Shown here: positions 2,407 to 32,346 of the stretch, piece after piece
Position numbering within the stretch: position 1 is the first letter of the stretch
How the letters are laid out: each line of letters starts with the position of its first letter
Source: a virus
Length of the DNA stretch: 34,595 nt
IMG/VR virus record: IMGVR_UViG_3300033388_002136
Location: 1-34,595 of that record
Reading direction: 5' to 3' (one strand)
Notes under the pieces: model-generated
Databases searched by the model: none
Seen by the model: only the letters and a program-made list of their open reading frames with translations
What the model was told of the DNA's origin: nothing
Program-made: the position numbers and the translations under genes

Positions 2407-3606
2407 ATGCCAACTAATTCATTAGCACAATTCGGCCCTGCATTATACGAAACTATCCGTAAAGGCTTCTATCAAAGACCAGAAGAAAAACAGGCTAATC
2501 GCCTAGCTCAACTTCAAACAGAGACACTTGAATACGGTCTTGAGAGTAAGAAAAAAGCTGATGTAATGGCAAGACAGAAGTTTTCTATGGAAGTCATGAC
2601 TAAAGGAGCAAATCACGTACTGTCTGCTACACCCGAACAAATGCCCGGTCGATATGCTCAGGTGCTTCAGGATATGGGTAAGATGGGTGTGGATACAAGC
2701 CAGATGCCACAACAGTTCACACCCGACGTTCATGAGAAGCTAAAGATGTTTCGTGAGAAAGCAAAACCATTGTCGCCTGCTGGTAAGTTAGCTAGAGATG
2801 TCGAGACTGGAGTTCTTACACAGGAACAAGCCGATCTTGCGAGGAAGGAGCCTAAAGAGCGGAGAATAATTAAAGGTGCGGGAGGGTATCAGCGATTTGT
2901 CGATACTGGGGAGAGGGTATTTCCTACCTCCGTTAAAACAGAAAAAGGAACCACTAAGACATATAGACAAGAATATGATGATGGTAGAGTAGGATTACAT
3001 AATAAGGAGGGCGCTTTTCTTAGATACCTAACCGATAAAGAAGGTAATCCAATTACAACAGGGGTTAGTGAGAGAGCGAAAGGTGTGGGAGTCAGAGCAG
3101 GGGTTAGAGAGAAGGGAATTCAAGCAAGACACGCGCAAAAAGAAGTTCGTTTATCGGTTGGACAATTAACAGATGACTATAGGGCTGATCGAAAGAAAAT
3201 ACTTGAAGTTTCTCGATCCGTAACAAAGGTTGAATCATTATTGGCAGAACCTCAAACTCCAGCAAGGGACTTGGCTTTACAGAAAGAAATCTCACAATTA
3301 TTCGATACAAGCTCAAGAGCTGAATCAGAGGTTGGCGCATGGCGTAACTTCGGTGATTTACCAACAAGACTTGCTGGTGCAATCAGTCGGTTTACAACTG
3401 GTGAATATGTGCCCGAGCAAATAGTAGAACTTGAACAAATTGTCGCTTCATTAAAGAATGACTTGGTTGTTCCGTCCATGAGAGAAGTTGACAATATTTA
3501 TACCAAGCAAGCAAAAGAATTTAAGATCGACCCTAAACTAATAATCAGAAAGAGTGTTATGCCTAAATGGAAAATAGAGAACGGCGTAATGGTTGAGACT
3601 AACTAA
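2407..3606 (+). CDS. Putative ejection protein (P22 gp20 position)
   Basis: 399 residues, highly charged and mostly helical, with Gln/Lys/Glu-rich stretches that could form coiled coils (about residues 20-60 and 210-330). There is no signal peptide. A GGAG Shine-Dalgarno precedes the ATG, and the stop overlaps the next start (TAATG). It lies between a gp7-like protein and a very long gp16-like protein, the place of the middle ejection protein in P22-like phages. No sequence motif of its own is recognised, so the function is inferred from synteny. Confidence 0.55.
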   Translation: MPTNSLAQFGPALYETIRKGFYQRPEEKQANRLAQLQTETLEYGLESKKKADVMARQKFSMEVMTKGANHVLSATPEQMPGRYAQVLQDMGKMGVDTSQMPQQFTPDVHEKLKMFREKAKPLSPAGKLARDVETGVLTQEQADLARKEPKERRIIKGAGGYQRFVDTGERVFPTSVKTEKGTTKTYRQEYDDGRVGLHNKEGAFLRYLTDKEGNPITTGVSERAKGVGVRAGVREKGIQARHAQKEVRLSVGQLTDDYRADRKKILEVSRSVTKVESLLAEPQTPARDLALQKEISQLFDTSSRAESEVGAWRNFGDLPTRLAGAISRFTTGEYVPEQIVELEQIVASLKNDLVVPSMREVDNIYTKQAKEFKIDPKLIIRKSVMPKWKIENGVMVETN

Positions 3607-6101
3607 TGGGATCAATATTTGTACAAGGGATAGGCGAGGTTGAGATTGCCGGTGATACTCCCACCCCGGAAGAACAAAGTGTTATTGCAAGCTCTATGAC
3701 TCAACCGGAAGACTCAGGGCGCATTAATTCCAGATGGTCACTAGCTGGTGACGCCTTTAAAAAAGGGATGATTGATTTATTATCTAATGTTAGTCATTTG
3801 CCGGGTGGTCAGATAACAAAAAAAGAAGTCCGTGATGAATACGATAAAATAGCTGGCGTTAAAGATATCATCCCAGAAGATAAGATTGATGAATATATTG
3901 AGTCTATATCAAGATTTGCTGGCGCGTCTGTAATACCGGGAACTGGTGTAATTGCAAAATCATCACAAAAAGCTCTTGCAGCCGTTACAGAAGTGTCTAG
4001 TACATTATTTGGTGGCGCCGGCGCAGTATTAGGCGGGGATATTGCAGAACAATTAGAAATACCTAGAGAGTACGGGGAAGTAGGTGGCGGGTTGGTTGGA
4101 GGTATTTTACCAATAGCGAGTCAAGGACTTATTCAAAAAGGAGTTGCGAAAGGCAGGCAATTACTAAAAAAGGAAAGCCAAGAGGCTTTTGCTCGTAATC
4201 AAGCTAGACAGGAAATTGAAAGTGCTATAGCAACCGATCCAAGAGCGCAGGCTAATTTGCAGCGTGCAGAACAGTTAAAACAAGATATACCGGGTTTTGA
4301 ACCCATGCTTCCACAGGCCGTTGGTGCGCCCGGAATTGTTGCTTTAGGTAAGAGGGTGGCAGAAAGAACCACTGAAAATCTCAATAAAACAACCATTAGA
4401 ATGGATCAGAATATTGATGCTATTCAAAGAAAATTTGAAACAGATTTTCCGGAAGCGGCTATTGATGCGATAAAGCCAGCAAGAGAAACTCTGAAGCGTA
4501 CTGAATTATCACTTGAATCTGATCTTACAATACTTAAAACACAACAAGATGAGCTTGCTGAAAGGTTTTCAAGAAAACTCGCACCAGAAATAGGCGAGGA
4601 ATTAAGAGAACTAAGAATTGTTGCCAAGGATGCTGCTAGAGCAGTAAAAAATAGTAAGTATATTGATGCTTATGAGGCGGCGGAGGCTCAAGGTGTTAGG
4701 GTTCGCGTGGATGATGTATACGATGATGTTAGGTCAATAATCAGAAGTGCTGATTTTCAAGAAACTGAGCTTCCGTTTGTATTTAAGCAGGTTATATCAA
4801 AATACAAACCAGCTCAATCAAAGGGAGTGGAATATAGTTTAGGAAAAGGTATTACTGGGCAACGGCAGATTGATGTAATAGAGCCAACTACAGTCGATTT
4901 CCCTGAATTTCATTCATTAATAAGGCAAACGAACAAGGAAATAGGCGCGGCTCGCGCGGCTAATGATCCAACGAAAGAATATTTCTTGATTAAACTTTCA
5001 AAGAAGTTAGAAAGGAAGCTGGAGCCACTGAGAACTGGTGATTTTGGAGCTAAATTGAATGAAGCCGATAGATTTTGGTTGGAAGATTATCATAATGTAT
5101 TCCGTAAAGGCGTTGGCGGGAAAATGGAACGGTTCAACCGCTTTGGTGAAATCACGCCTGATGAAAAGATTGTTTCTGATTTAGCCTTTAAATCTAAAGC
5201 GTCTTTAGCCCAATTCAGAAGATTATTTCAAGATACCCCGGAAGCAACGGAATTATTGATTGATGGGACACTTGATATGTTCTCCAAAGCGGCTGTACGA
5301 GATGGAATTATAAAGCCCAATCTAGCTAAAACTTTCCTTAGAAAACACAAACACATTCTTGATGATTTACCAGAAGTAAGCGGAATTTTAAGAAACGCTG
5401 ATTCACTCAATGATGCGCTCTTATTAAGACAGTCAGAAGTTTCAACAAAAATGTCTGCATTAGCCAAGAGCCGTCTAAGTAAAATAACAAAAATTGATAA
5501 TGTAGACGATGCTATAGAAAAAGCTTTAAAAGACCCGAAAGAGATGTTTGCTTTAATGGGGTCAGCTAGAAAGTCTCCTGAAGGGCGTAAAGCATTAGCG
5601 AGAGCTGTAGCGGATCATGTCAAATCAAAACCCAATCCATATCAATATATTCTTGAGAATGAAAAAAATCTTTCTATGGCTTTAAACCCACTAGGCAAAG
5701 ATCATCTCAAGAATTTAAAAGTTATTGCAGAAGCCGAAGAGATATTAGCGAGAGCCAAACCACCTACCACTGTAGATATAGGAAAGACTATACACGACCC
5801 TCTTGAAAGAAGGATTGGAACAACAGTAAAAAGTGTTATTTCTCAATTAAGGGCTGCTGCACAAGGTCGTGTTTCTCAGCAATATGTATTTTCTGATATA
5901 TCAGGTAAATTCATATTCAAGATTCAGCAGGATGAAGCACAAAGGCTATTAGAAGCTGCTATTTTCGACCCAGATATTTCTAAAACATTAGCTGGGCTTG
6001 CAACAAGAGAAACAATGACAAAAATTCAATCCAATAGAATAAGAAATCATTTGTATAGTTTAGGAATTAAATCAATCGCAACAACCGAACAATCGGAGTA
6101 G
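3606..6101 (+). CDS. Large ejection protein, P22 gp16-like
   Basis: 831 residues. Near the N-terminus (about 95-190) is a long Gly/Ala/Ile-rich amphipathic to hydrophobic region (VIPGTGVIAK, LFGGAGAVLGGDIAE, VGGGLVGGILPIA), followed by about 600 residues of charged helix-rich sequence. This is the usual form of the largest internal protein of P22-like and related podoviruses, released with the genome to form part of the conduit through the envelope. No lysozyme or transglycosylase signature is recognisable. The start is coupled to the upstream stop (TAATG). Confidence 0.6.
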   Translation: MGSIFVQGIGEVEIAGDTPTPEEQSVIASSMTQPEDSGRINSRWSLAGDAFKKGMIDLLSNVSHLPGGQITKKEVRDEYDKIAGVKDIIPEDKIDEYIESISRFAGASVIPGTGVIAKSSQKALAAVTEVSSTLFGGAGAVLGGDIAEQLEIPREYGEVGGGLVGGILPIASQGLIQKGVAKGRQLLKKESQEAFARNQARQEIESAIATDPRAQANLQRAEQLKQDIPGFEPMLPQAVGAPGIVALGKRVAERTTENLNKTTIRMDQNIDAIQRKFETDFPEAAIDAIKPARETLKRTELSLESDLTILKTQQDELAERFSRKLAPEIGEELRELRIVAKDAARAVKNSKYIDAYEAAEAQGVRVRVDDVYDDVRSIIRSADFQETELPFVFKQVISKYKPAQSKGVEYSLGKGITGQRQIDVIEPTTVDFPEFHSLIRQTNKEIGAARAANDPTKEYFLIKLSKKLERKLEPLRTGDFGAKLNEADRFWLEDYHNVFRKGVGGKMERFNRFGEITPDEKIVSDLAFKSKASLAQFRRLFQDTPEATELLIDGTLDMFSKAAVRDGIIKPNLAKTFLRKHKHILDDLPEVSGILRNADSLNDALLLRQSEVSTKMSALAKSRLSKITKIDNVDDAIEKALKDPKEMFALMGSARKSPEGRKALARAVADHVKSKPNPYQYILENEKNLSMALNPLGKDHLKNLKVIAEAEEILARAKPPTTVDIGKTIHDPLERRIGTTVKSVISQLRAAAQGRVSQQYVFSDISGKFIFKIQQDEAQRLLEAAIFDPDISKTLAGLATRETMTKIQSNRIRNHLYSLGIKSIATTEQSE

Positions 6102-8865: not shown

Positions 8866-8954
8866 TGGCAGAAGGCGGAGGAGTCGAACCCCTAACACGC
8901 AATGGTCACTCACGGGTTCAAACCGTGTTGCCAGCCAACCTAGCAGCGCCTTCC
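8866..8954 (-). tRNA. tRNA-Ser(UGA)
   Basis: Acceptor GGAAGGC pairs with GCCTTCT (one G-U), followed by G and encoded CCA. The anticodon stem CACGG/CCGTG encloses the loop TTTGAAC, giving anticodon UGA (codon UCA). It has a long class II variable arm. Length 89 nt, separated by 3 nt from the Ser(GCU) gene. Confidence 0.9.
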
Positions 8955-8959
8955 TTATT

Positions 8960-9036
8960 TGGTACCCTCAGTGAGACTCGAACTCACAAATCACGGTTTC
9001 TAAAACCGCTGGCTATGCCAATTCGCCTACAAGGGC
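8960..9036 (-). tRNA. tRNA with UAG anticodon (Leu codon CUA), short variable loop
   Basis: A complete 77-nt cloverleaf: acceptor GCCCTTG with TGAGGGT (several G-U pairs), anticodon stem GCGGT/ACCGT, loop TTTAGAA giving anticodon UAG, T-arm GTGAG/CTCAC, discriminator A and CCA. By codon it is Leu, but the variable loop is only 5 nt (GATTT) instead of the long arm normal for bacterial tRNA-Leu. Discriminator A73 suits LeuRS. The charging identity is uncertain. Confidence 0.85.
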
Positions 9037-9037
9037 A

Positions 9038-9124
9038 TGGTGGAGAGAGCTGGATTCGAACCAACACGGAACTAGCCGACCTCCGGGTTACAGCCGGGTG
9101 CCCTACCTAATGGGCGTTCTCTCC
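9038..9124 (-). tRNA. tRNA-Tyr(GUA)
   Basis: Perfect acceptor stem GGAGAGA/TCTCTCC, discriminator A and encoded CCA. The D-stem is GCCC/GGGC, and the anticodon loop CTGTAAC gives GUA. It has a long variable arm, as in bacterial class II tRNA-Tyr. Length 87 nt. Confidence 0.92.
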
Positions 9125-9128
9125 AAAA

Positions 9129-9205
9129 TGGTGCCAGTGGCTAGATTCGAACTAGCAACCCACGGATTTTAAATCCGTTGCCTCTGCCTATTGGACTACA
9201 CTGGC
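9129..9205 (-). tRNA. tRNA with UAA anticodon (Leu codon UUA), short variable loop
   Basis: A 77-nt cloverleaf: perfect acceptor GCCAGTG/CACTGGC, anticodon stem ACGGA/TCCGT, loop TTTAAAA giving anticodon UAA, T-arm GCTAG/CTAGC, discriminator A and CCA. The variable loop is 5 nt (GGGTT), so like the UAG gene it is a class I tRNA with a Leu anticodon. It is structurally well formed and not obviously decayed. Confidence 0.86.
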
Positions 9206-9206
9206 T

Positions 9207-9283
9207 TGGTCTGCGCGGTTGGATTTGAACCAGCGGCTTCCCCGTTCCAAGCGGGGGTGTCTACCAAACTGACTTACGCACAG
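9207..9283 (-). tRNA. tRNA-Pro(UGG)
   Basis: Acceptor CTGTGCG pairs with CGCGCAG (one T-G), followed by discriminator A and CCA. The anticodon stem CCCCG/CGGGG encloses CTTGGAA, giving anticodon UGG. The T-stem has one mismatch. Length 77 nt. It is the promoter-proximal tRNA if the array is transcribed leftward, with a terminator-like hairpin starting 12 nt upstream. Confidence 0.9.
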
Positions 9284-21883: not shown

Positions 21884-22417
21884 ATGAAGAAGCTTAAGGA
21901 TAAGAAGTGTAAAGCGTGTAAGGGACTATACCCGCCATTCACTTCCACCCAAACAGCCTGTAGTCCAAATTGCGCGTACAAGCTTGCTACAGCCGCTAGG
22001 GAGAAGAAAGAAGCTAAAGAGCTACGAGAACGCAAGAAAGCATTAAAGTCCCGTAGCCAGCACCTAAAGGAGTGTCAGGCAATATTTAACAAGTACATCA
22101 GAATGCGTGATGCCGGCCTTCCTTGCATAAGCTGCGGAACGACTAAACCGAATATTCAATATTGCGCTGGTCATTATCTTACACGAGGCGGTCATCCTGA
22201 ATTGAGATTCCATGAAAAAAATGTGCATAAACAATGTAATCAATATTGCAACTTGCAGTTATCAGGAAATATTAGCAAGTACAGAATCAATCTTGTGGAA
22301 AAGATAGGATTATCGGAAGTTGAGAAATTAGAGGGAAAGCATGAAGCAAAGCATTATACTATTGACGAAATACAAGCAATTAAGGTAAAATACAGGAATA
22401 AAACCAAAGAGTTATGA
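21884..22417 (+). CDS. ninG: NinG-like recombination protein
   Basis: 177 residues with AGGAG before the ATG. Three sets of Cys (CKACKG, CSPNC, CISCG then CAGH and CNQYCN) and a long Lys/Arg-rich helix (residues 35-65) match the NinG/Rap family, which has a DUF968-like HNH fold and acts on recombination intermediates. In lambda-like phages NinG lies between replication and Q genes, as here. The stop overlaps the next start (ATGA). Confidence 0.85.
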   Translation: MKKLKDKKCKACKGLYPPFTSTQTACSPNCAYKLATAAREKKEAKELRERKKALKSRSQHLKECQAIFNKYIRMRDAGLPCISCGTTKPNIQYCAGHYLTRGGHPELRFHEKNVHKQCNQYCNLQLSGNISKYRINLVEKIGLSEVEKLEGKHEAKHYTIDEIQAIKVKYRNKTKEL

Positions 22418-23585: not shown

Positions 23586-24056
23586 ATGAAACCATCAATT
23601 GTAATGGCTATGCAATCTCACAGAGCCAGAGACTATCTATCAGTGGGGAGAACGACAAAGGTAAACTTCGACCCATTCACAGCCGCCGCCATGTGTAGAG
23701 GCGTTCAGAGGAAGCACTACCTAGCCGCCAGAGTCCATTATTGTCTTGATTTGTCGGGTATTCGGCAACTAGAAAAATGGCTTATGTCAGTAGCGCAAGA
23801 CTTTGAAAAACAAGAGAAATGGAGAGTGCCAAAAGGAAGAAATTACTTAACAAACATGTGTTTGCTTGCTATAATTGAAGCTCATGGAAGTCAAGATATG
23901 AAGTTCGCAAAACAAAAGGCCGAATGGGTGGGGGTAAGTGAGTCCCAATGGAATAGAGTATGGCAAACAAGATACGAGGCTATTTATTTACGGCTAATGG
24001 GTTGGGTTGATATAGCGACAAGACAAATAATAAAAAATCAATATGGGTCAAGTTAG
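23586..24056 (+). CDS. Possible late-gene regulator (Q-like position)
   Basis: 156 residues. The C-terminal half (KAEWVGVSESQWNRVWQTRY) has the look of an HTH seen in phage antitermination or late-regulatory proteins, and it is the last ordinary gene before a strong promoter plus terminated leader, the place of Q in lambda. The N-terminal half has a Cys-containing RGVQRKHYLAARVHYC. It is not assigned to a specific Q family; the regulator call comes from position and partial resemblance. Its stop overlaps the following endonuclease gene. Confidence 0.5.
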   Translation: MKPSIVMAMQSHRARDYLSVGRTTKVNFDPFTAAAMCRGVQRKHYLAARVHYCLDLSGIRQLEKWLMSVAQDFEKQEKWRVPKGRNYLTNMCLLAIIEAHGSQDMKFAKQKAEWVGVSESQWNRVWQTRYEAIYLRLMGWVDIATRQIIKNQYGSS

Positions 24057-24486
24057 ATATCACAGAGTATTTCAGAGGGATGAAATTTATAACCAACATA
24101 AATTATGTTGTGTGGAGGGATGCGAAATACACAGGGAAAAAATAGAGAAATACTGTTATCTACACCAAAGGCCAGAGGAAGAAAGCGAAGAACACAAGGA
24201 AAGGATGTGTTACTTCATAAAATCAGAGGATGATACGCTATTAAAAATAGGTAAAAGCAGGGATATAGGTGCGCGTCTTGCATCATTACAGACAGGCTCA
24301 CCACAAAAGCTTGTTTTGATAGGCATGTTTCCCAATAATGGGAACTTGGAAAAGAAGCTACATAAGCGGCTAAGACAGTATAGAACACATGGAGAATGGT
24401 TTAAAATTGAAGGGGAAATTGAGGAACTATTGTGTATTGTTAGATCAGGTGATGACATTAAATTGATTAAATATCTGAAAAGTTAG
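24043..24486 (+). CDS. GIY-YIG (T5orf172-like) endonuclease
   Basis: 147 residues. An N-terminal Cys/His cluster (C22-C23-x3-C27, C38, H41) precedes a GIY-YIG-type domain: CYFIKSEDD then LLKIGKSRDIGARL (R78 region) and NLEKKLHKRLRQYR with E103 and H107, ending HGEWF. The pattern fits the T5orf172/Mug113 subfamily, which includes homing nucleases. It sits between the Q-like gene and the late promoter, so it is probably a mobile insert. Overlaps the previous gene by 14 nt. Confidence 0.72.
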   Translation: MGQVRYHRVFQRDEIYNQHKLCCVEGCEIHREKIEKYCYLHQRPEEESEEHKERMCYFIKSEDDTLLKIGKSRDIGARLASLQTGSPQKLVLIGMFPNNGNLEKKLHKRLRQYRTHGEWFKIEGEIEELLCIVRSGDDIKLIKYLKS

Positions 24487-24495
24487 ACGATTGTC

Positions 24496-24524
24496 TTGAC
24501 AACCGCAATCGCTAGACCTACAAT
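24496..24524 (+). promoter_or_regulatory. Strong sigma70-like promoter (pR'-like)
   Basis: TTGACA (24496-24501) and TACAAT (24519-24524) with a 17-bp spacer: near-consensus. Transcription would start close to 24531, in front of a gene-free stretch that ends in a terminator. Confidence 0.75.
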
Positions 24525-24530
24525 TATCTA

Positions 24531-24863
24531 GAGTGGATTAGCATCACTTAAATGTTAGTGTAATAAGCGCATTAAGACCCGATAACCCTCCAATAAGGCA
24601 GCGCAAATGAATTCTCTAGTGGGTAGCCGTGACTGGTGAGAGGCTAAAGATAACGCAGGATAAAAGTATCGTTTGGCCTTTACCTGCCATAAATAATTAA
24701 TTATCGGCACTTGTCATGCTGAATGTAGTTATTTATGTAGACCTTACCTAGTTCATAAAGAAGACCGAAAGAAGTGCCTGCTATTGGTACGCAGGAATAA
24801 TAAAACCTCCATAGTGTGTATTGTCCCTAGTGAGCTTATTCTCTGTAGTCTAGGGGCTTTTTT
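24531..24863 (+). ncRNA. Candidate structured leader/ncRNA, about 333 nt
   Basis: No ORF of note. Paired arms: TAGCC/GGCTA (24624/24642), GCAGG-TAAA-G with C-TTTA-CCTGC (24655-24687), GGCACTT/AAGTGCC (24706-24712/24772-24778) enclosing TTTATG/CATAAA (24732/24754), and CCTGC/GCAGG (24777/24791). GCAGG and CCTGC each occur twice, so alternative folds are possible. It starts at a near-consensus promoter and ends at a terminator, as lambda 6S RNA does between pR' and tR'. No known RNA family is recognised. Confidence 0.6.
24825..24863 (+). terminator. Intrinsic terminator of the leader RNA (tR'-like)
   Basis: CCCTAG (24825-24830) pairs with CTAGGG (24850-24855) and is followed by GCTTTTTT. The loop is long (19 nt). 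Faces right. Confidence 0.68.
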
Positions 24864-25077
24864 AATTGGATTCACTACTTATTGTAGATGAACTTACCGA
24901 GGCTTCGGATAGCTGAGCCAGCGTAGCAAATCAGCGTCCAATCTTACAAAGTACCCACAATCCCGCTCAGGAACCCTAAGATTCTTTTAACTTAAGGCTT
25001 TGTTTTTGTTCCGTTATGGGAATTCCCATTTCGGGGAAAGCACCCCCAGAGGACTATAAGCCGTAGGGGTAAACGGG
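24864..25077. other. Gene-free stretch with further hairpins and a palindrome
   Basis: No gene seen. ATTGGA/TCCAAT (24865/24937) encloses GGCT/AGCC; a second rightward terminator follows. ATGGGAATTCCCAT at 25016-25029 is a perfect 14-bp palindrome. Arms AGCAC (25039) and GTGCT (25095) enclose two smaller hairpins, which reach into the end of the leftward gene. It could be a tandem terminator or antiterminator leader, or a protein-binding site. Confidence 0.4.
24975..25010 (+). terminator. Second rightward terminator-like hairpin
   Basis: CCTAAG (24975-24980) pairs with CTTAAGG (24991-24997) with one bulge, followed by CTTTGTTTTTGTT. Weaker than the one at 24825. Confidence 0.45.
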
Positions 25078-25284
25078 TTACAACCTTGTGGTTGGTGCTG
25101 ATGGGTCTATTTTAGATAGCTTATCCATAGCATTGTTAAACTTGCGCTTATGTGTTCTGACAGACGGAGAGATATGTTCCGCCAAGCCTGCGCCGCAACT
25201 ATAATTGTCAAGAGCATCATGATAGGCGTTATAATGCTTTTTAGCTGCCGTTTTTAGTATAGTGATTTCTAATTGTTTAAGCAC
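25078..25284 (-). CDS. Hypothetical accessory protein (68 aa)
   Basis: GTG start with a GGAGG site five bases upstream. Basic and helical, with one CGAG stretch. Last gene of the leftward accessory cluster; no family recognised. Confidence 0.6.
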   Translation of the reverse strand: MLKQLEITILKTAAKKHYNAYHDALDNYSCGAGLAEHISPSVRTHKRKFNNAMDKLSKIDPSAPTTRL

Positions 25285-25285
25285 A

Positions 25286-25381
25286 TTAACCTCCTAACAC
25301 TGGTATTATAAAATATAACGTAACTAACGAACACCACACAAAGGCCAATAAACCTATATAGTAGTACGGTAGGAAGCTCAC
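25286..25381 (-). CDS. Small membrane protein (31 aa, GTG start)
   Basis: MSFLPYYYIGLLAFVWCSLV... is almost wholly hydrophobic, beginning at a GTG that overlaps the lipoprotein stop (TAGTG). It uses a different frame from a longer alternative ORF (25269-25496), which overlaps the lipoprotein gene and lacks a ribosome site. Its stop lies just after the GGAGG site of the next gene. Confidence 0.4.
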   Translation of the reverse strand: MSFLPYYYIGLLAFVWCSLVTLYFIIPVLGG

Positions 25382-25551
25382 TAGAGTATAAATCTTGCTG
25401 TATTTTTGCAAGATACCTGTATATCACCGACGAGATGAGTAATGATATCAACGCCGTCATTGTCTTTACATAATTCGGTAGCCCGAGTAATTTCACCGGA
25501 ATTTACAGAGCAGCCAGTTAATAAAATGGCTATAATTAGTAGCTTTTTCAT
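25381..25551 (-). CDS. Small lipoprotein (56 aa)
   Basis: MKKLLIIAILLTGCSVNSGE: two Lys, a hydrophobic stretch and the lipobox LTGC, so Cys14 would be lipidated. The mature part has two Cys (near residues 28 and 48). Small lipoproteins of this form occur in many phages; some block superinfection at the periplasm. Its frame excludes the overlapping 75-aa alternative. Confidence 0.7.
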   Translation of the reverse strand: MKKLLIIAILLTGCSVNSGEITRATELCKDNDGVDIITHLVGDIQVSCKNTARFIL

Positions 25552-25565
25552 AGTTTTAATCCTCT

Positions 25566-25739
25566 TTAATGGTTAAGTAATAGTAATAAAGCCATTATAC
25601 CTGCGGCTAAACAAGCCGCTATAAGAGCCAACACCCATTCAGGCACCTTCTTATTAAGGAACATCTCAGGGGTATACCGTCTAGGATAATACCTATGTCT
25701 TTCAGTACGGATACAGTTTGATGGCGTGTTAGATTTCAT
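25566..25739 (-). CDS. Tail-anchored small membrane protein (57 aa)
   Basis: A basic, Arg/Tyr-rich N-terminus (RTERHRYYPRRYTPE) is followed by one hydrophobic helix at the end (WVLALIAACLAAGIMALLLLL). The topology would put the basic part in the cytoplasm. Overlaps the upstream gene by 11 nt. Confidence 0.6.
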   Translation of the reverse strand: MKSNTPSNCIRTERHRYYPRRYTPEMFLNKKVPEWVLALIAACLAAGIMALLLLLNH

Positions 25740-26004
25740 TAGTTAACTCCTTATTGATTTGATATACCCAAGCTTTGGAATGGTATTTCGGGGAACGGTT
25801 CAAGTATCCCTTTTTATACAAGTGATAAAGATGATACATAGCCATTGAATGGGACATTTCACCCATTTCGGACAATTTATTTGAAGTTATATTGCCACAA
25901 GCAGATATAAGACTAATTATATTTGTCTGATATTCAGAGATGAGTAATTTATTAAACCCCTTAGTATCAGAAAGGATGCAGGCTCTGATCTGTTTAGGTT
26001 TCAT
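25729..26004 (-). CDS. wHTH-like DNA-binding protein (91 aa)
   Basis: Start at the ATG at 26004 (ATGA overlap, GGGAAG upstream). A winged-helix pattern is visible: ISLISACGNITSNKLSEMGE, MSHSMAMYHLYHLYKKGYL, then AWVYQI as the wing strand. Probably a small transcriptional regulator, perhaps acting on the cluster promoter region near 28300. Confidence 0.6.
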   Translation of the reverse strand: MKPKQIRACILSDTKGFNKLLISEYQTNIISLISACGNITSNKLSEMGEMSHSMAMYHLYHLYKKGYLNRSPKYHSKAWVYQINKELTNEI

Positions 26005-26327
26005 GATTCTTCCCATTCAATACGGGCATAACAGCCTTCAGGGAAGTGCTTATAAACTAATTCATCGAATTCGGTAAAAGTATGATTTTTACGTTCTCGT
26101 TCAATAAATACTTCTTTATTGTAAATAGAATAGCCATCTTTTAACTGAAGTTTATAACTATTTTTCATTGGTTCATCAGATAAAATACCGACAATAAAAG
26201 GCTGTTTCGACGGGAAATTAAAATAATTTCTTAAATCGTTATGGCATAATATCGGAGTATTGGCAATATAATAACAAGCACCTTCACTAAAATGTTGACG
26301 TAGTTTCAGCTTAAACTCTTTTTTCAT
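26001..26327 (-). CDS. Hypothetical accessory protein (108 aa)
   Basis: Start at the ATG at 26327 (GGAG eight bases upstream). Soluble, basic and aromatic (KLKLRQHFSEGACYYIAN...). No family recognised; coupled to the wHTH gene. Confidence 0.55.
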   Translation of the reverse strand: MKKEFKLKLRQHFSEGACYYIANTPILCHNDLRNYFNFPSKQPFIVGILSDEPMKNSYKLQLKDGYSIYNKEVFIERERKNHTFTEFDELVYKHFPEGCYARIEWEES

Positions 26328-26353
26328 AATATACACTCCATAGGGTTATATAG

Positions 26354-26569
26354 TTAGTTAAAGCCGTTTATAAATTTACGCATTTCTTCTGGTGAGCCAC
26401 TATTAACGGCCAGCATACCCAACAGAAATGCTATATGGGCACTATCAGAAGTTTCTTTATGCTTACCTAGGTCACTAAGTAGTGAAGAAAAGGCTTGCTG
26501 ATTATCGCCAGCATCAACATATTCTAAAGCGCGGTCTTTGCACCATTGTAAATGTTCTGATCTGTTCAT
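26354..26569 (-). CDS. Conserved phage protein (71 aa)
   Basis: MNRSEHLQWCKDRALEYVDA... then SDLGKHKETSD and PEEMRKFINGFN. This is a recognisable conserved small phage/prophage protein type of unknown function. Its ATG overlaps the stop of the RHH gene (TAATG). Confidence 0.72.
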   Translation of the reverse strand: MNRSEHLQWCKDRALEYVDAGDNQQAFSSLLSDLGKHKETSDSAHIAFLLGMLAVNSGSPEEMRKFINGFN

Positions 26570-26721
26570 TATTTACCCCCTAGTAAGTCAACAGCCTTTA
26601 GAACCTGAACACGGGTAAAGTCAGCTACCTTACGATTATCAAGCTTAGCGGCCTCTTTAATGGCTTTAAACTCTGTTTTAGTAACCCGAAGCGGGATTAA
26701 TTTAGTACGGTTTTCTTTCAT
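26569..26721 (-). CDS. Ribbon-helix-helix-like DNA-binding protein (50 aa)
   Basis: MKENRTKLIPLRVTKTEFKAI...: an N-terminal strand (KLIPLRVT) then two helices separated by a turn (TEFKAIKEAAKLDN, KVADFTRVQVLKAVDL) is the RHH/Arc layout. AAAGGAA lies before the ATG. Candidate regulator of this cluster. Confidence 0.65.
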   Translation of the reverse strand: MKENRTKLIPLRVTKTEFKAIKEAAKLDNRKVADFTRVQVLKAVDLLGGK

Positions 26722-26742
26722 GTTAATTCCTTTGGTTAGTGG

Positions 26743-26991
26743 TTAATTGTGTACATCTTTAATGTGCATTGATAAGCCAGCTTTTTTGACTCGTTTACCA
26801 CATTGAGGACAAGATACTTTATTACTGCTTATTTTTGAAAGTCTTTCTTGTTCTTCACGCGCTTGGCGTTCATAACTAATAGGGAAGCCGGGAGATTCTG
26901 TACCGTAACGGTCCAGATTAACATCGCCTATATATTCACCTGTTTCTTCGTCAAGGATGCCTTCAAGCATCATGTCGGCTATTTCGCCCAT
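26743..26991 (-). CDS. C2H2 zinc-finger-like protein (82 aa)
   Basis: The C-terminus CPQCGKRVKKAGLSMHIKDVH is a C2H2 finger. The N-terminal part (MGEIADMMLEGILDEETGEY) follows a form common in small phage proteins that have a similar zinc knuckle. AGGAGG lies upstream of the ATG. Probable nucleic-acid binding. Confidence 0.7.
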   Translation of the reverse strand: MGEIADMMLEGILDEETGEYIGDVNLDRYGTESPGFPISYERQAREEQERLSKISSNKVSCPQCGKRVKKAGLSMHIKDVHN

Positions 26992-27003
26992 AATATTTAC
27001 CTC

Positions 27004-27087
27004 CTAAAGTGAGTTAAGAACCCCTGCCACTATCAAAACGATAGCAGACAGGATGTAGAAACAAGTTAAAATGATACGTTCAAGCAT
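27004..27087 (-). CDS. Micro membrane protein (27 aa)
   Basis: MLERIILTCFYILSAIVLIV...: a single hydrophobic helix with a good GAGG site seven bases upstream. Sits cleanly between two genes with their own ribosome sites. Unknown function. Confidence 0.55.
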   Translation of the reverse strand: MLERIILTCFYILSAIVLIVAGVLNSL

Positions 27088-27089
27088 GG

Positions 27090-27503
27090 TTAAGCCTCAA
27101 TCGGATTATTTATGGTTCTACCAAGCGCAAGGCCAGCAAGCTGGACACCAGCTGACCACTCTTTAGGGGTACCGTTAGAGCCAATGTCTATATCATCACC
27201 AAAAATGTCTTTAGCAACGGCTAAGGCAGCTACAACGAAAATATCATAAGGCTTGTAGGCTGTTTTACAGAATTCAAAGCCTACAGTAGTTCTATTGAGT
27301 AAAAATGTTTCGTGTCCAGCATCATTAAGGCCATTAAACCTGACTATTTCAGAAGTTAGTTGGGGCGGTTTGTCAGTATTGTCATATTCAAAGGCAACTG
27401 GAATATGACAAGCATTGACTACCTTTCGTATATCGTCTGAATATGCCTTGAATTTATCAGCATCAAGTACGTTTTTAGTTGTAAAATAGTGTGTGTATCC
27501 CAT
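27090..27503 (-). CDS. Conserved phage protein starting MGYTHYF (137 aa)
   Basis: Start at the ATG at 27503 (GGAGGG seven bases upstream). MGYTHYFTTKNVLDADKF opens a family found in many phages and mobile elements, with a central GLNDAGHETFLLNRTTVGFEFCKTA and a KPYD region. Function unknown, soluble alpha/beta protein. Confidence 0.75.
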   Translation of the reverse strand: MGYTHYFTTKNVLDADKFKAYSDDIRKVVNACHIPVAFEYDNTDKPPQLTSEIVRFNGLNDAGHETFLLNRTTVGFEFCKTAYKPYDIFVVAALAVAKDIFGDDIDIGSNGTPKEWSAGVQLAGLALGRTINNPIEA

Positions 27504-27529
27504 TAGTTTGCCCTCCATAGGGTATAGTG

Positions 27530-27676
27530 TTAAGAGTGATTATGAGTGAAGCGGCCAGTAAACGCCCAGCCTTTCGGCTTAGTTGACTTAGCCCCATGAA
27601 ACCAAATAGTTTCACGATAGCCAGTTCTCTTATTAATTCTTGTTATTTCATGTAATGTTTCGGTAACGTGTTGCAT
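27530..27676 (-). CDS. Small basic protein (48 aa)
   Basis: MQHVTETLHEITRINKRTGY... with GGAG before the ATG. Basic, aromatic, rich in His; no family recognised. Confidence 0.55.
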   Translation of the reverse strand: MQHVTETLHEITRINKRTGYRETIWFHGAKSTKPKGWAFTGRFTHNHS

Positions 27677-27706
27677 GTTTTTACTCCTTTAGGGTATAGG
27701 TGTTAG

Positions 27707-27949
27707 TTAAGGCAGTAATGCCAAGCATTCGCCGGTTAGGAAGTAGTTCATACGTTGCCATATAGTAAAATTATTATCATGCTTACCTGATTCTATTTCA
27801 TGTGCATATTGTCTTTCTTTGGCGGCGTATTGCTTCTTTTCTGATTCCGTTACATGACTAGCGAAGCCAAAATCTTCGTCGAGGGCGTGATCTGCAAGGG
27901 AGTGATTGATTTTAGCTGCGCATATTCTGGCTTGTTGTATAGTTTTCAT
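27707..27949 (-). CDS. Hypothetical accessory protein (80 aa)
   Basis: MKTIQQARICAAKINHSLAD... helical and charged, AAGGGG before the ATG. No family recognised. Confidence 0.6.
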   Translation of the reverse strand: MKTIQQARICAAKINHSLADHALDEDFGFASHVTESEKKQYAAKERQYAHEIESGKHDNNFTIWQRMNYFLTGECLALLP

Positions 27950-27984
27950 ATCTTTACCCCTTATAAGTGTCTTGCGCGTTAGTG

Positions 27985-28254
27985 TTAACGTGTGAATCTT
28001 GGTAAAAAGAAGTTTTCCATTTCGCCGGAATCGCGGTTAATGTTCTTCTGGATTCCATGAATATCATGACCGAAATTAAAATCATCGGCATCAAAAAGCT
28101 CTTTAAGCTTTAATTTACTTGCTATATGCGCGGCGGTAATATCCATTTGTAATGATATTTTATCATCCCACGCAAAGCCTGATGTGATAGCTCGGTTAAC
28201 TATCTTGTTGATAATAGCCGTATCTTTCTTGCTTATTTTGTTCCAGTTAATCAT
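27985..28254 (-). CDS. First gene of the accessory cluster (89 aa)
   Basis: Start at the ATG at 28254 (GGGGG six bases upstream; the earlier ATG at 28302 lies in the control region). Begins MINWNKISKKDTAIINKIVN. Helical soluble protein; similar small proteins occur in other phages but function is unknown. Confidence 0.65.
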   Translation of the reverse strand: MINWNKISKKDTAIINKIVNRAITSGFAWDDKISLQMDITAAHIASKLKLKELFDADDFNFGHDIHGIQKNINRDSGEMENFFLPRFTR

Positions 28255-28290
28255 AATTAACCCCCTTAGTGTGTAGATAGAGCATATACT

Positions 28291-28310
28291 AAAAGTATAC
28301 AAAAGTATAC
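28291..28310. promoter_or_regulatory. Tandem AAAAGTATAC repeats in divergent control region
   Basis: Two exact 10-bp copies in tandem, each with the palindrome GTATAC, and a degenerate third (CATATACT) next to them, all between the accessory cluster (left) and the terminase operon (right). The 10-bp spacing puts the palindromes on one face of the DNA. Further AT-rich palindromic DNA (TTAATATTAA) follows. A likely operator for one of the small regulators; no firm -35/-10 pair is assigned. Confidence 0.45.
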
Positions 28311-28343: not shown

Positions 28344-28484
28344 ATGGCTGACATAAAATATATCTTCCCTGAATACATAGAAGAAGAAGTAAAAGACAGT
28401 CCTTATGCTAGTTTAATAATGCTGTGGGAAAACAACCTAGCCGCAAGGAAAGAAGTAGTTAATACTACATCAGAGATGATATGA
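28344..28484 (+). CDS. Small acidic protein before TerS (46 aa)
   Basis: MADIKYIFPEYIEEEVKDSP... overlaps the TerS start (ATGA). There is no clear ribosome site, so translation efficiency is uncertain. Helical, no family recognised. Confidence 0.5.
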   Translation: MADIKYIFPEYIEEEVKDSPYASLIMLWENNLAARKEVVNTTSEMI

Positions 28485-29979: not shown

Positions 29980-32346
29980 ATGCCTATGTCAAAAGAACGA
30001 TTACACCAATTACTTACTGAGAAAGCCAAAGCCCTTAAATACGACAAACTGAGAAACTTCGACCCTTACGTGTGGCAGCAAAAGTTTGTTAACGACAAGG
30101 CGATGTCAAAAGGACTGCGCTGTGGAAATCAGCAAGGAAAATGCACTTCGTTTAGTACGGTTATTAATACGTCATCTGGTAAGAAACGGATGGGTGATAT
30201 ATTTGGTACTGAATGTGAGGTATTAACCTTTCCCGACAAGGAGCCGAGAAAGGTCTTAGGATGGGTTAGGAAGCCTAAAGAAGAGTGTTTTAGAATTACG
30301 ATGTCGGATGGCCAGTGGATTGAGTGTCCAAAAGGACATCGAATTTTGGTCGGGTCTGACTACCTCTTTGTTTCAGAGATTTTACAATCGCTTCCCGACA
30401 GCGTCTTTTTCCGTCAGGAGTCCACTTTGGGCATTTGCCGGTTAATTCATGCTTTAGATGTTCGGCGTTACTACCAAAGACTGCTAGATTATCTGGATGA
30501 TTATTTAGTGGATCGCCGTCTATGTGATGGACAACTTCTTTCCGACCAAGATAGCGTCCAAGTTTTTGCTCCATTACAAGACGATGCTCAGAAACATAAT
30601 TGCCTCTGGTTTTATTTGGATGGTTTGGCGAGTAAATGTACAAATATCCTTTCACGAGGCAAGTACCGCCTTTCCAATCTGGGTGACGCTCTCCGGACTT
30701 CGGCCCAGTACGTTGTTTCTTCAAACCAAATCGTTTCATCCGGCTTTCGATCGTTCTTCGATGACAGCCAAAATGGTCAGCTATCAAACGGGTTTGAATG
30801 TCATCTGCAACCATTTGACGTAATACCTCTACATCTATCTGAATCTTATCAGTACCCATTATTATCTCCTGTATCCGTATGTGGAAACCATATTGTATCA
30901 ATCAAGTCGGTTGGCTTCAAGACTTTATATGATATGGAGGTTGAGGGGAGGCATAACTATATTGCAGGCGGAATGGTTCATCACAACACATACGTTGGTT
31001 GCGCTGCTGATGCTTTTGACCTAACTGGGGAATACCCTGATTGGTATGTGGGGCATAAATTCACCCATCCTGTAACGGTAGTTGTTGGTTGTATCAATAA
31101 TGATAAAACCCGCGATATCCTCCAAAAAGAGCTTTTCGGTAATCCGATTGAGTGGGAGAAAGAATTAGGGACTGGCTGGATACCCAAAAGGTGTATAGGG
31201 AAGATACAGAAGAAACGCGGAGTCCCAGATGCCTTTTATAATGTAAGGATTAAACACTTCACGGATGGGGTTTTTGATGGATGGTCACAAATCGTCTTCT
31301 TAGCTTACGAAATGGGTAAGGCGACATGGATGGGACATAAAGCCCACGTTACCCATTTAGACGAAGAACCCCCTGAAGAAATTTTAGAGCAGGCATCACG
31401 AAGTTCTATCGCCACCAGTGGCCGGATCAGGATTACATGGACTCCTGAGAACGGAATGACCAAAGTAGTAAAATTGGTTCAGGATAAATGGAGTATGCAC
31501 ACAGCAGAATGGGCTGATGTTGCGGGAGAAGACTTCACTATTGAGGTTGAAGGAGAGGAGTTCGAGTTTAAGACGGTTTACACGTTGAAAGGTCGAAAAG
31601 GACATCTTGATAAAAAGAGCGTTCTTTCTGCCCAAACAAATATTCTCCCTTATCAGATGAAGATGAGGATGAGAGGAATACCCGTTCTAGGTTCAGGTTT
31701 GGTCTTTGCTTACCCTGAAGACCAGATTAAATGCGAGCCGATGTCATTTCCAGACCATTTCTTATTTCTGGACGCTTTAGATTTTGGTGGATTGAGTTCA
31801 ACGGCTCATCCAACAGCCTTCGTGAGAACCGCATACGACCCTGATAATGACGTTATATACATCTATGACGGATTTCGCTTAAAAGGCCGTGAGATACCTG
31901 AGATTGCCTCTCACATCATAATGAAGCCTAATGCCGACATTATTCCCGTAGCGTGGCCGCATGACGGTAATAAAATCACTGGTCAGGGACAGTCTACAGC
32001 CGATCAGTATTTAGCTGCTGGTGTGAATATGTACGAGACTTTTGCTACTAATCCTCCGGCTGAGAATCAGATCGAAGGCAAAGGCGGGATTCAGATAATG
32101 CCCGGAATTACGGATATGTCTACGAGAATGGCAGATGGACGTCTTAAAGTCGTAAACACAGTAAATGATTTTTTTGAGGAATTTAGACAATATCATATGA
32201 AAGACGGAAAAATAGTCGATGTTGATGATGATTTTATGTCTGCTACACGATACGCAGTTATGTTTAAGAGATTTGCGGTTAAATTAGAGCAACCAAAGCC
32301 TTATGTGTCGAGTTTTGAGAATGTTGGCGGGTGGATGAGCGCATGA
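29980..32346 (+). CDS. terL: Terminase large subunit (TerL) with intein in the Walker A motif
   Basis: 788 residues before splicing; removal of residues 55-336 gives a 506-residue TerL. The N-extein ends GNQQGK (residues 49-54), and T337 completes the Walker A lysine-threonine. Walker B is VTHLDEEPP (D461-E462), with TWTPENG as the coupling motif. The nuclease half has D598 and D601 (LDALDFGG), KITGQGQSTADQY and a DVDDD cluster (747-751). TerL pumps DNA into the capsid and cuts it. The start may be ATG 29980 or 29986; no ribosome site is clear. The intein must splice for ATPase activity. Confidence 0.88.
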   Translation: MPMSKERLHQLLTEKAKALKYDKLRNFDPYVWQQKFVNDKAMSKGLRCGNQQGKCTSFSTVINTSSGKKRMGDIFGTECEVLTFPDKEPRKVLGWVRKPKEECFRITMSDGQWIECPKGHRILVGSDYLFVSEILQSLPDSVFFRQESTLGICRLIHALDVRRYYQRLLDYLDDYLVDRRLCDGQLLSDQDSVQVFAPLQDDAQKHNCLWFYLDGLASKCTNILSRGKYRLSNLGDALRTSAQYVVSSNQIVSSGFRSFFDDSQNGQLSNGFECHLQPFDVIPLHLSESYQYPLLSPVSVCGNHIVSIKSVGFKTLYDMEVEGRHNYIAGGMVHHNTYVGCAADAFDLTGEYPDWYVGHKFTHPVTVVVGCINNDKTRDILQKELFGNPIEWEKELGTGWIPKRCIGKIQKKRGVPDAFYNVRIKHFTDGVFDGWSQIVFLAYEMGKATWMGHKAHVTHLDEEPPEEILEQASRSSIATSGRIRITWTPENGMTKVVKLVQDKWSMHTAEWADVAGEDFTIEVEGEEFEFKTVYTLKGRKGHLDKKSVLSAQTNILPYQMKMRMRGIPVLGSGLVFAYPEDQIKCEPMSFPDHFLFLDALDFGGLSSTAHPTAFVRTAYDPDNDVIYIYDGFRLKGREIPEIASHIIMKPNADIIPVAWPHDGNKITGQGQSTADQYLAAGVNMYETFATNPPAENQIEGKGGIQIMPGITDMSTRMADGRLKVVNTVNDFFEEFRQYHMKDGKIVDVDDDFMSATRYAVMFKRFAVKLEQPKPYVSSFENVGGWMSA
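30296..30859 (-). CDS. HNH homing endonuclease encoded antisense inside the TerL intein
   Basis: 187 residues from the ATG at 30859, which has AGGAG six bases upstream. An N-terminal HTH (about 20-48, IQTRLIADHFGCHRRTIESR) is followed by the family signature HPDWKGG (59-65), GYLYIYSPNHPN, NYVSEHRLVMEQKLGR and the HNH core EVVHHIDGDPLNNHPDNL (H111, H112, D114, N124) with H134 and H137. The basic tail KRRCREAIVKSLKQR is also typical. The last 20 or so residues are read from the intein N-terminal domain. A complete, ordinary homing endonuclease; only its position is odd. Confidence 0.88.
   Translation of the reverse strand: MGTDKIQIDVEVLRQMVADDIQTRLIADHFGCHRRTIESRMKRFGLKKQRTGPKSGERHPDWKGGTCLVKGYLYIYSPNHPNKTRGNYVSEHRLVMEQKLGRYLGRKEVVHHIDGDPLNNHPDNLAVFGSNAEHLKHELTGKCPKWTPDGKRRCREAIVKSLKQRGSQTRPKFDVLLDTQSTGHPTS
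30892..30920 (-). promoter_or_regulatory. Sigma70-like promoter of the antisense HNH gene
   Basis: On the minus strand TTGAAG (30920-30915) and TACAAT (30897-30892) are 17 bp apart. The start would be near 30885, about 26 nt before the HNH ATG, leaving room for its AGGAG site. It overlaps the coding sequence of the intein C-terminal splicing domain. Confidence 0.65.

Follow-up and report, generated by a model that had tools for sequence, protein, structure and literature searches.

In the phage lambda genome, the pR'-6S-tR' late leader, made up of a promoter, a short untranslated leader and a terminator, follows the nin region. RNA-based anti-CRISPRs are phage-encoded solitary repeat units, and RNA motifs associated with DUF3800 were reportedly described by Weinberg et al. 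in 2017. A precedent for RNA mimicry is phage PhiTE, which escapes ToxIN by means of a pseudo-ToxI RNA (PMC3475682), and DUF3800 was found earlier in the company of putative non-coding RNAs (PMC10910872, its reference 59). The locus that we compare here with these systems lies in the viral record IMG/VR IMGVR_UViG_3300033388_002136, and the whole stretch analysed, all 34,595 nucleotides of it, is referred to as the window. The portal protein of this phage is P22-like and closest to those of Vibrio, Shewanella, and Thalassomonas phages. Its TerL gene (29980–32346) contains an in-frame insert of ~280 amino acids at 30142–30987 that is absent from 75%-identical relatives and is probably an intein, as it matches Pfam Intein_splicing.

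At positions 24496 to 24863 the initial annotation had placed a strong promoter, a gene-free region with long-range paired arms and a terminator, together yielding a 333-nt structured RNA on the lambda plan; the promoter, the gene-free stretch and the terminator all stand, whereas the 333-nt RNA shows no more folding than chance would give it. The near-consensus sigma70-type promoter (TTGACA-17-TACAAT, 24496–24524, plus strand) agrees with 11 of 12 consensus positions in a consensus scan, and no other good promoter precedes the conserved RNA described below. One equally good plus-strand site occurs elsewhere in the whole window, at 23847, and shuffled windows contain a mean of 1.4, and the 24496 promoter is good without being exceptional. 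The other site, also 11/12, spans 23847–23875 and is promoter-like sequence within ORF 23586–24056. No gene occupies the plus strand from 24531 to 24863, and the non-coding leader within it (24531–24822) has no homologue and folds at chance level. The arms proposed for it, GGCACTT (24706) with AAGTGCC (24772) and GCAGG (24655 and 24791) with CCTGC (24683 and 24777), are present in the sequence, but in a number that chance provides, with six exact 7-bp inverted repeats in the 333 nt compared with 3.75 in shuffles, 20% of which reach six. The 333-nt RNA folds at −82.6 kcal/mol and its shuffles at −79.6 ± 4.9 (z −0.62), a weak test in that the covariation-supported RNA at 24868–24941 itself scores only −1.7, and in a sliding-window analysis of 24460–25100 an AT-rich hairpin at ~24680–24759 is alone in standing out (z −3.3). 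DNA similar to 24490–24870 was found neither among phages or plasmids by blastn nor in the relatives that were fetched, and the relatives reached by TerL (L015–L018) hold no homologue of 24531–24863.

The intrinsic terminator (24823–24863, plus strand) has an 8-bp stem (24823–24830/24850–24857), a 19-nt loop, and a U6 tract at 24858–24863, with a folding energy of −13.4 kcal/mol; the consensus scan missed it because the loop is long. A second terminator 3' of the conserved RNA, at 24970–25006, was considered and discarded as too weak (−2.1 kcal/mol), and matches to Rfam IS009 (E 0.08 and 0.8), far below gathering, were judged to be chance. Beyond these, the palindromic TTATGGGAATTCCCATTTCGGGG at 25009–25039 has short, mostly unannotated matches in phages of Serratia, Providencia, Proteus, Hafnia, and enterobacteria as well as in a plasmid of E. 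coli, and it may perhaps be a shared operator or recombination site. The ORF at 23586–24056, which had been put forward as a possible Q-like gene, is located after ninG (21884–22417) in a lambdoid-like placement and is separated from the promoter by a GIY-YIG nuclease gene (24043–24486), but it has no PHROG, Pfam, or PADLOC match and no relative in phages by tblastn; the two proteins upstream of the leader likewise have no relatives in viral contigs. Late genes do begin past a leftward cluster as had been described, with leftward ORFs at 25078–28302 and the small terminase starting at 28481.

What the rightward unit does contain, in addition to the promoter, leader, and terminator, is a genuine structured RNA, though not the 333-nt one: it is ~70 nt long, has a probable role in trans, and begins 5 nt past the end of the terminator, where the annotated feature had stopped. 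This conserved RNA, at 24868–24941 on the plus strand, is matched by our covariance model R1 with a score of 74.1 bits and, for a search of the window, an E-value of 1.2e-15, and it has two covarying helices. In helix P1 (24871–24892) the inner pairs are CUAC/GUAG in the window and CUGC/GCAG in the nearest relatives, and this compensatory change on both sides is a sign of structure kept under selection. Helix P2 (24907–24916/24931–24939, together 24907–24939) encloses the invariant core GCCAGCGUAGCAAA (24917–24930). Over 61 distinct sequences, 96.4% of P1 and P2 cells pair, changes on both sides occur at 16 of 20 pairs, and double-change cells number 214 compared with 54 in shuffles; when the partners are shifted by one base the pairing falls below 40%, and a separately built alignment also supports the covariation. 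The strand is indicated by 52 G-U cells as against 18 A-C cells on the strand that was modelled. The invariant core strand CGAGGCUU (24898–24905) and the remainder of the core, CGAGGCUU...GAGCCAGCGUAGCAAAUC, are nearly invariant across homologues, an apparent invariance that is due in part to the pattern searches having required the core. Within it, GGC (24901–24903) and GCC (24917–24919) form the 5' and 3' sides of a likely pseudoknot, with 98.9% of cells paired; variation is concentrated in a single pair of the three (C-G 51, U-G 8, U-A 1), the other two being almost fixed, and the U-A comes from L161, a locus found without the pattern, so that variation at this third pair lends modest support. 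No Rfam 15 covariance model matches any copy of the RNA, and there is no credible further copy in the window (best other E 0.2). A resemblance to the 530-loop of 16S rRNA was set aside, as only a six-base string is common to the two.

The first lead to homologues was a blastn phage match lying past the end of the annotated feature, in a part of Sphingobium phage Lacusarx devoid of genes, and among plasmids a stronger match (69 nt, E 4e-10) adjoined a type I restriction locus in Phyllobacterium. Viral contigs and 84,980 genomes of bacteria and archaea were then scanned with patterns, which brought the number of copies to ~60, all scored with R1, and these homologues fall into two main settings, namely bacterial PDC-M04 loci and phages in which the RNA is alone. 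A few of the 65 model matches (L138, L142, L151, and L157) score poorly or are incomplete and count for nothing individually, and a looser pattern gave 108 matches, most of which were due to chance and were used as the control set for tRNA proximity. No copy was found in E. coli, and neither the RNA itself nor an RNA component of PDC-M04 turned up in searches of the literature.

In 17 bacterial loci the RNA is convergent to a type I restriction-modification operon encoding HsdS, a DUF3800 protein, a protein of ~153 amino acids, and HsdR, and it sits between the gene for the ~153-amino acid protein and HsdR. PADLOC identifies the DUF3800 protein as PDC-M04A (6e-72) and the smaller one as PDC-M04B (1e-62), the two members of a candidate phage-defence pair, which are adjacent in the bacterial loci; neither has a tblastn match in the window, and this phage possesses the RNA only. 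The linkage is with the RNase-like gene PDC-M04B, from which the convergent RNA is separated by <10 bp in bacterial loci. When 295 genomes of Ruegeria's family were sampled starting from the protein, four strong PDC-M04B homologues were found and all four adjoin the RNA, at 5 to 9 bp from the protein match, and a fifth, also found protein-first elsewhere in the class, has the RNA as well (5/5). Conversely, the RNA is present in five of the 295 genomes, and the sole one with no strong PDC-M04B homologue has a decayed orphan. A lone decayed copy with a mutated core is located at 1501–1579 of L164, from a roseobacter-family genome with no RNase gene. Two loci, L161 and L162, have no HsdR nearby, suggesting that DUF3800, PDC-M04B, and the RNA constitute the minimal unit. 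A TTGAC box lies 30 to 33 nt upstream of the model start in 20 of 22 loci (exactly −32 in 17), and the remaining two have TTGCTT and a −10-like box, so in these loci a dedicated promoter appears to serve the RNA, with a transcript that would start at P1.

The structure model of PDC-M04B (pLDDT 88) is matched by a Salmonella toxin-antitoxin complex (VIA Z 6.3), by colicin D (Z 5.6 and 4.8), and by YoeB and RelE, where Z-scores of 6.3 and 5.6 are to be read as middling and where the colicin D match was recognised through its structure entry, which describes a ribonuclease of the colicin type together with its inhibitor. In agreement with these, Pfam gives weak matches, below gathering, to PBECR2 and PBECR3. 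The best Foldseek match was not significant (E 0.2), and it is from the modelled fold that we infer that PDC-M04B is a BECR-type RNase resembling RelE, YoeB, and colicin D.

The partnership can be followed into diverged PDC-M04 subfamilies. Loci L169 and L170 contain PDC-M04 pairs whose DUF3800 proteins are 36% identical, and a different RNA, type 2, takes the same convergent spot opposite the RNase-like gene (L169 1933–2007, minus strand; L170 1216–1290, plus strand), and repeats the layout of the first type, in that a hairpin at the 5' end is accompanied by a GGCUU stretch and a 9-bp P2 enclosing GCC; a TTGACT box lies upstream. A third type, again convergent to the RNase-like gene (L176 ~1445–1511 and L177 ~1440–1507, both plus strand), has the same layout, with P2 being an intrinsic terminator. 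Neither type matches Rfam 15. That the RNAs change together with the neighboring gene suggests that the partnership is direct.

Our favored explanation, to which we assign about an even chance, is that the RNA in the window is a phage copy of the antitoxin-like RNA of PDC-M04 and acts as a decoy against the predicted RNase. In the bacterial locus, the RNA would bind the putative RNase PDC-M04B and hold it in check in the manner of an antitoxin RNA, and in the infected cell the phage-borne RNA would serve as a decoy that keeps the putative RNase bound and inactive. In other phages the RNA might be made from tRNA operons. In the window there is no dedicated promoter at the usual place, which is taken instead by the terminator at 24823–24863, so that the likeliest source of a transcript would be the 24496 promoter with read-through of the terminator, possibly under antitermination, and the antitermination idea of the initial annotation thus keeps a place. 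Expression of this copy is on these grounds uncertain, and the promoter, leader, and terminator may belong to the unit from which the conserved RNA is transcribed. The broader proposal, which we hold as possible though a little short of evenly balanced, is that PDC-M04 is a new toxin-RNA defence composed of a BECR RNase, DUF3800, and a convergent inhibitor RNA, often within type I restriction-modification operons, and that it is widely countered by phages carrying the inhibitor RNA alone in their tRNA arrays.

In phages the RNA occurs as a lone copy, often within tRNA arrays and on the strand of the tRNAs. It fills a 72-nt gap between tRNA-Gly and tRNA-Gln in phage DSS3_MAL1, and it has the same placement in Phaeobacter phage MD18. 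A tRNA is found within 1 kb of the RNA at 16 loci that lack PDC-M04, on the same strand in 16 of 16, and the corresponding figure in controls is 0 of 79. Phaeobacter is the host of MD18, and the name of MAL1 refers to Ruegeria strain DSS-3, the MAL1 record giving no host; the roseobacters, to which the host of the one and the namesake of the other belong, are a group in which PDC-M04 with the RNA is found. Elsewhere, in phage Lacusarx (L002), a permuted tmRNA, an ORF of LAGLIDADG type, and a sequence resembling a tRNA lie next to the RNA, at 3190–4224, and the window has a tRNA array of its own at 8866–9283 on the minus strand, five genes (Ser, Leu, Tyr, Leu, Pro) far from the RNA. A third setting is a close group of Pasteurellaceae-like prophages (L022, L036, L059, L093, and L096), in which the RNA lies close to a DUF3560 gene and PDC-M04 proteins are absent.

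The phage setting invites the opposite derivation, in which the RNA has a job of its own in phage tRNA arrays (in the processing of tRNAs, for instance, or at the ribosome) and was captured by bacteria, which use it within PDC-M04 as a bait to signal infection. Such an origin would suit the same-strand position at 0 to 10 nt from a tRNA gene in several phages, where one would expect the ends of the RNA to be trimmed by RNase P and by tRNA 3' processing, and it would suit the wide occurrence of the RNA in phages and prophages where PDC-M04 is absent from the vicinity. The Pasteurellaceae-like prophage copies and many phage copies are in fact away from both tRNAs and PDC-M04, a distribution compatible with a pure decoy model, though not foreseen by it. 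Against this derivation, the diverged RNAs at the same site in diverged subfamilies point to a long co-evolution with the RNase gene, and in one viral-contig scan for lone phage copies of the type 2 and type 3 RNAs none of the 119 pattern matches survived the P2 filter. Judging from sequence identity, moreover, the copies closest to the window RNA are defence-locus copies (L121 from Nitrosomonas, 79%; L135 from Kangiellaceae, 78%), and phage copies are more distant, starting with L013 at 66%, as expected if the RNA had been picked up from a defence locus. We consider capture from phages unlikely, albeit worth keeping in mind.

More doubtful still is the idea that the RNA is an activating or targeting cofactor, or a guide, of the DUF3800 and BECR nucleases, for which phage copies would compete to occupy the complex; DUF3800 is found near putative non-coding RNAs and in Cas12a2 loci and has an RNase H-like fold (PMC10910872), and two putative nucleases at once accompany the RNA, but no variable guide-like segment is seen beside the conserved core and the sequence 3' of P2 is unrelated between distant loci. 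The original suggestion of a 333-nt leader like that of lambda pR'-6S, ending at a tR'-like terminator and targeted by Q-type antitermination for the late genes, is improbable, because the correct order of promoter, leader without genes, and terminator after ninG is offset by an ORF that matches no Q family, by a leader with no homologue that folds at chance, and by a leftward gene cluster of ~3.2 kb between the leader and the terminase genes. A 6S-like or put-like role of the 333 nt is suggested by position.

The analysis names an unrecognised structured RNA family and gives the candidate defence system PDC-M04, known by its proteins only, its missing RNA part, while offering a concrete reason for the presence of a non-tRNA RNA within some phage tRNA arrays. 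If the decoy model is true, natural mimicry of a bacterial RNase inhibitor RNA would be no rare means of escape but a strategy common to many unrelated phages. Phages already isolated, DSS3_MAL1, MD18, and Lacusarx, are suited to testing that model.

Compared with the lambda late leader, the window also has a strong promoter and a terminator flanking an untranslated leader, but it has no recognisable Q, its late genes are not directly downstream of the terminator, and its conserved RNA sits beyond the terminator. The likeness to the RNA-based anti-CRISPRs is that a phage RNA resembles the RNA of a defence locus, in this case with no link to CRISPR-Cas. The DUF3800 motifs share with the present family a structured RNA near a DUF3800 gene, whereas the copies described here and the type 2 and type 3 RNAs match no Rfam 15 family, and the PDC-M04 entry of PADLOC as searched consists of protein models, with no RNA component found described. 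The closest parallel is ToxIN with its pseudo-ToxI, in which a small, probably pseudoknotted RNA likewise accompanies an RNase-like gene in an anti-phage system and has a phage-borne homologue. The ToxIN antitoxin, however, is a tandem repeat co-transcribed ahead of the toxin, whereas the PDC-M04 RNA is a single copy with its own promoter, convergent on the opposite strand, and PDC-M04 differs further in the RelE/colicin D-like fold predicted for its RNase, in its DUF3800 partner, and in its type I restriction-modification setting. By layout PDC-M04 is thus not a type III system, and its mechanism would be ToxIN-like at most. Unlike pseudo-ToxI, the natural phage copies of the PDC-M04 RNA are often found in tRNA arrays.
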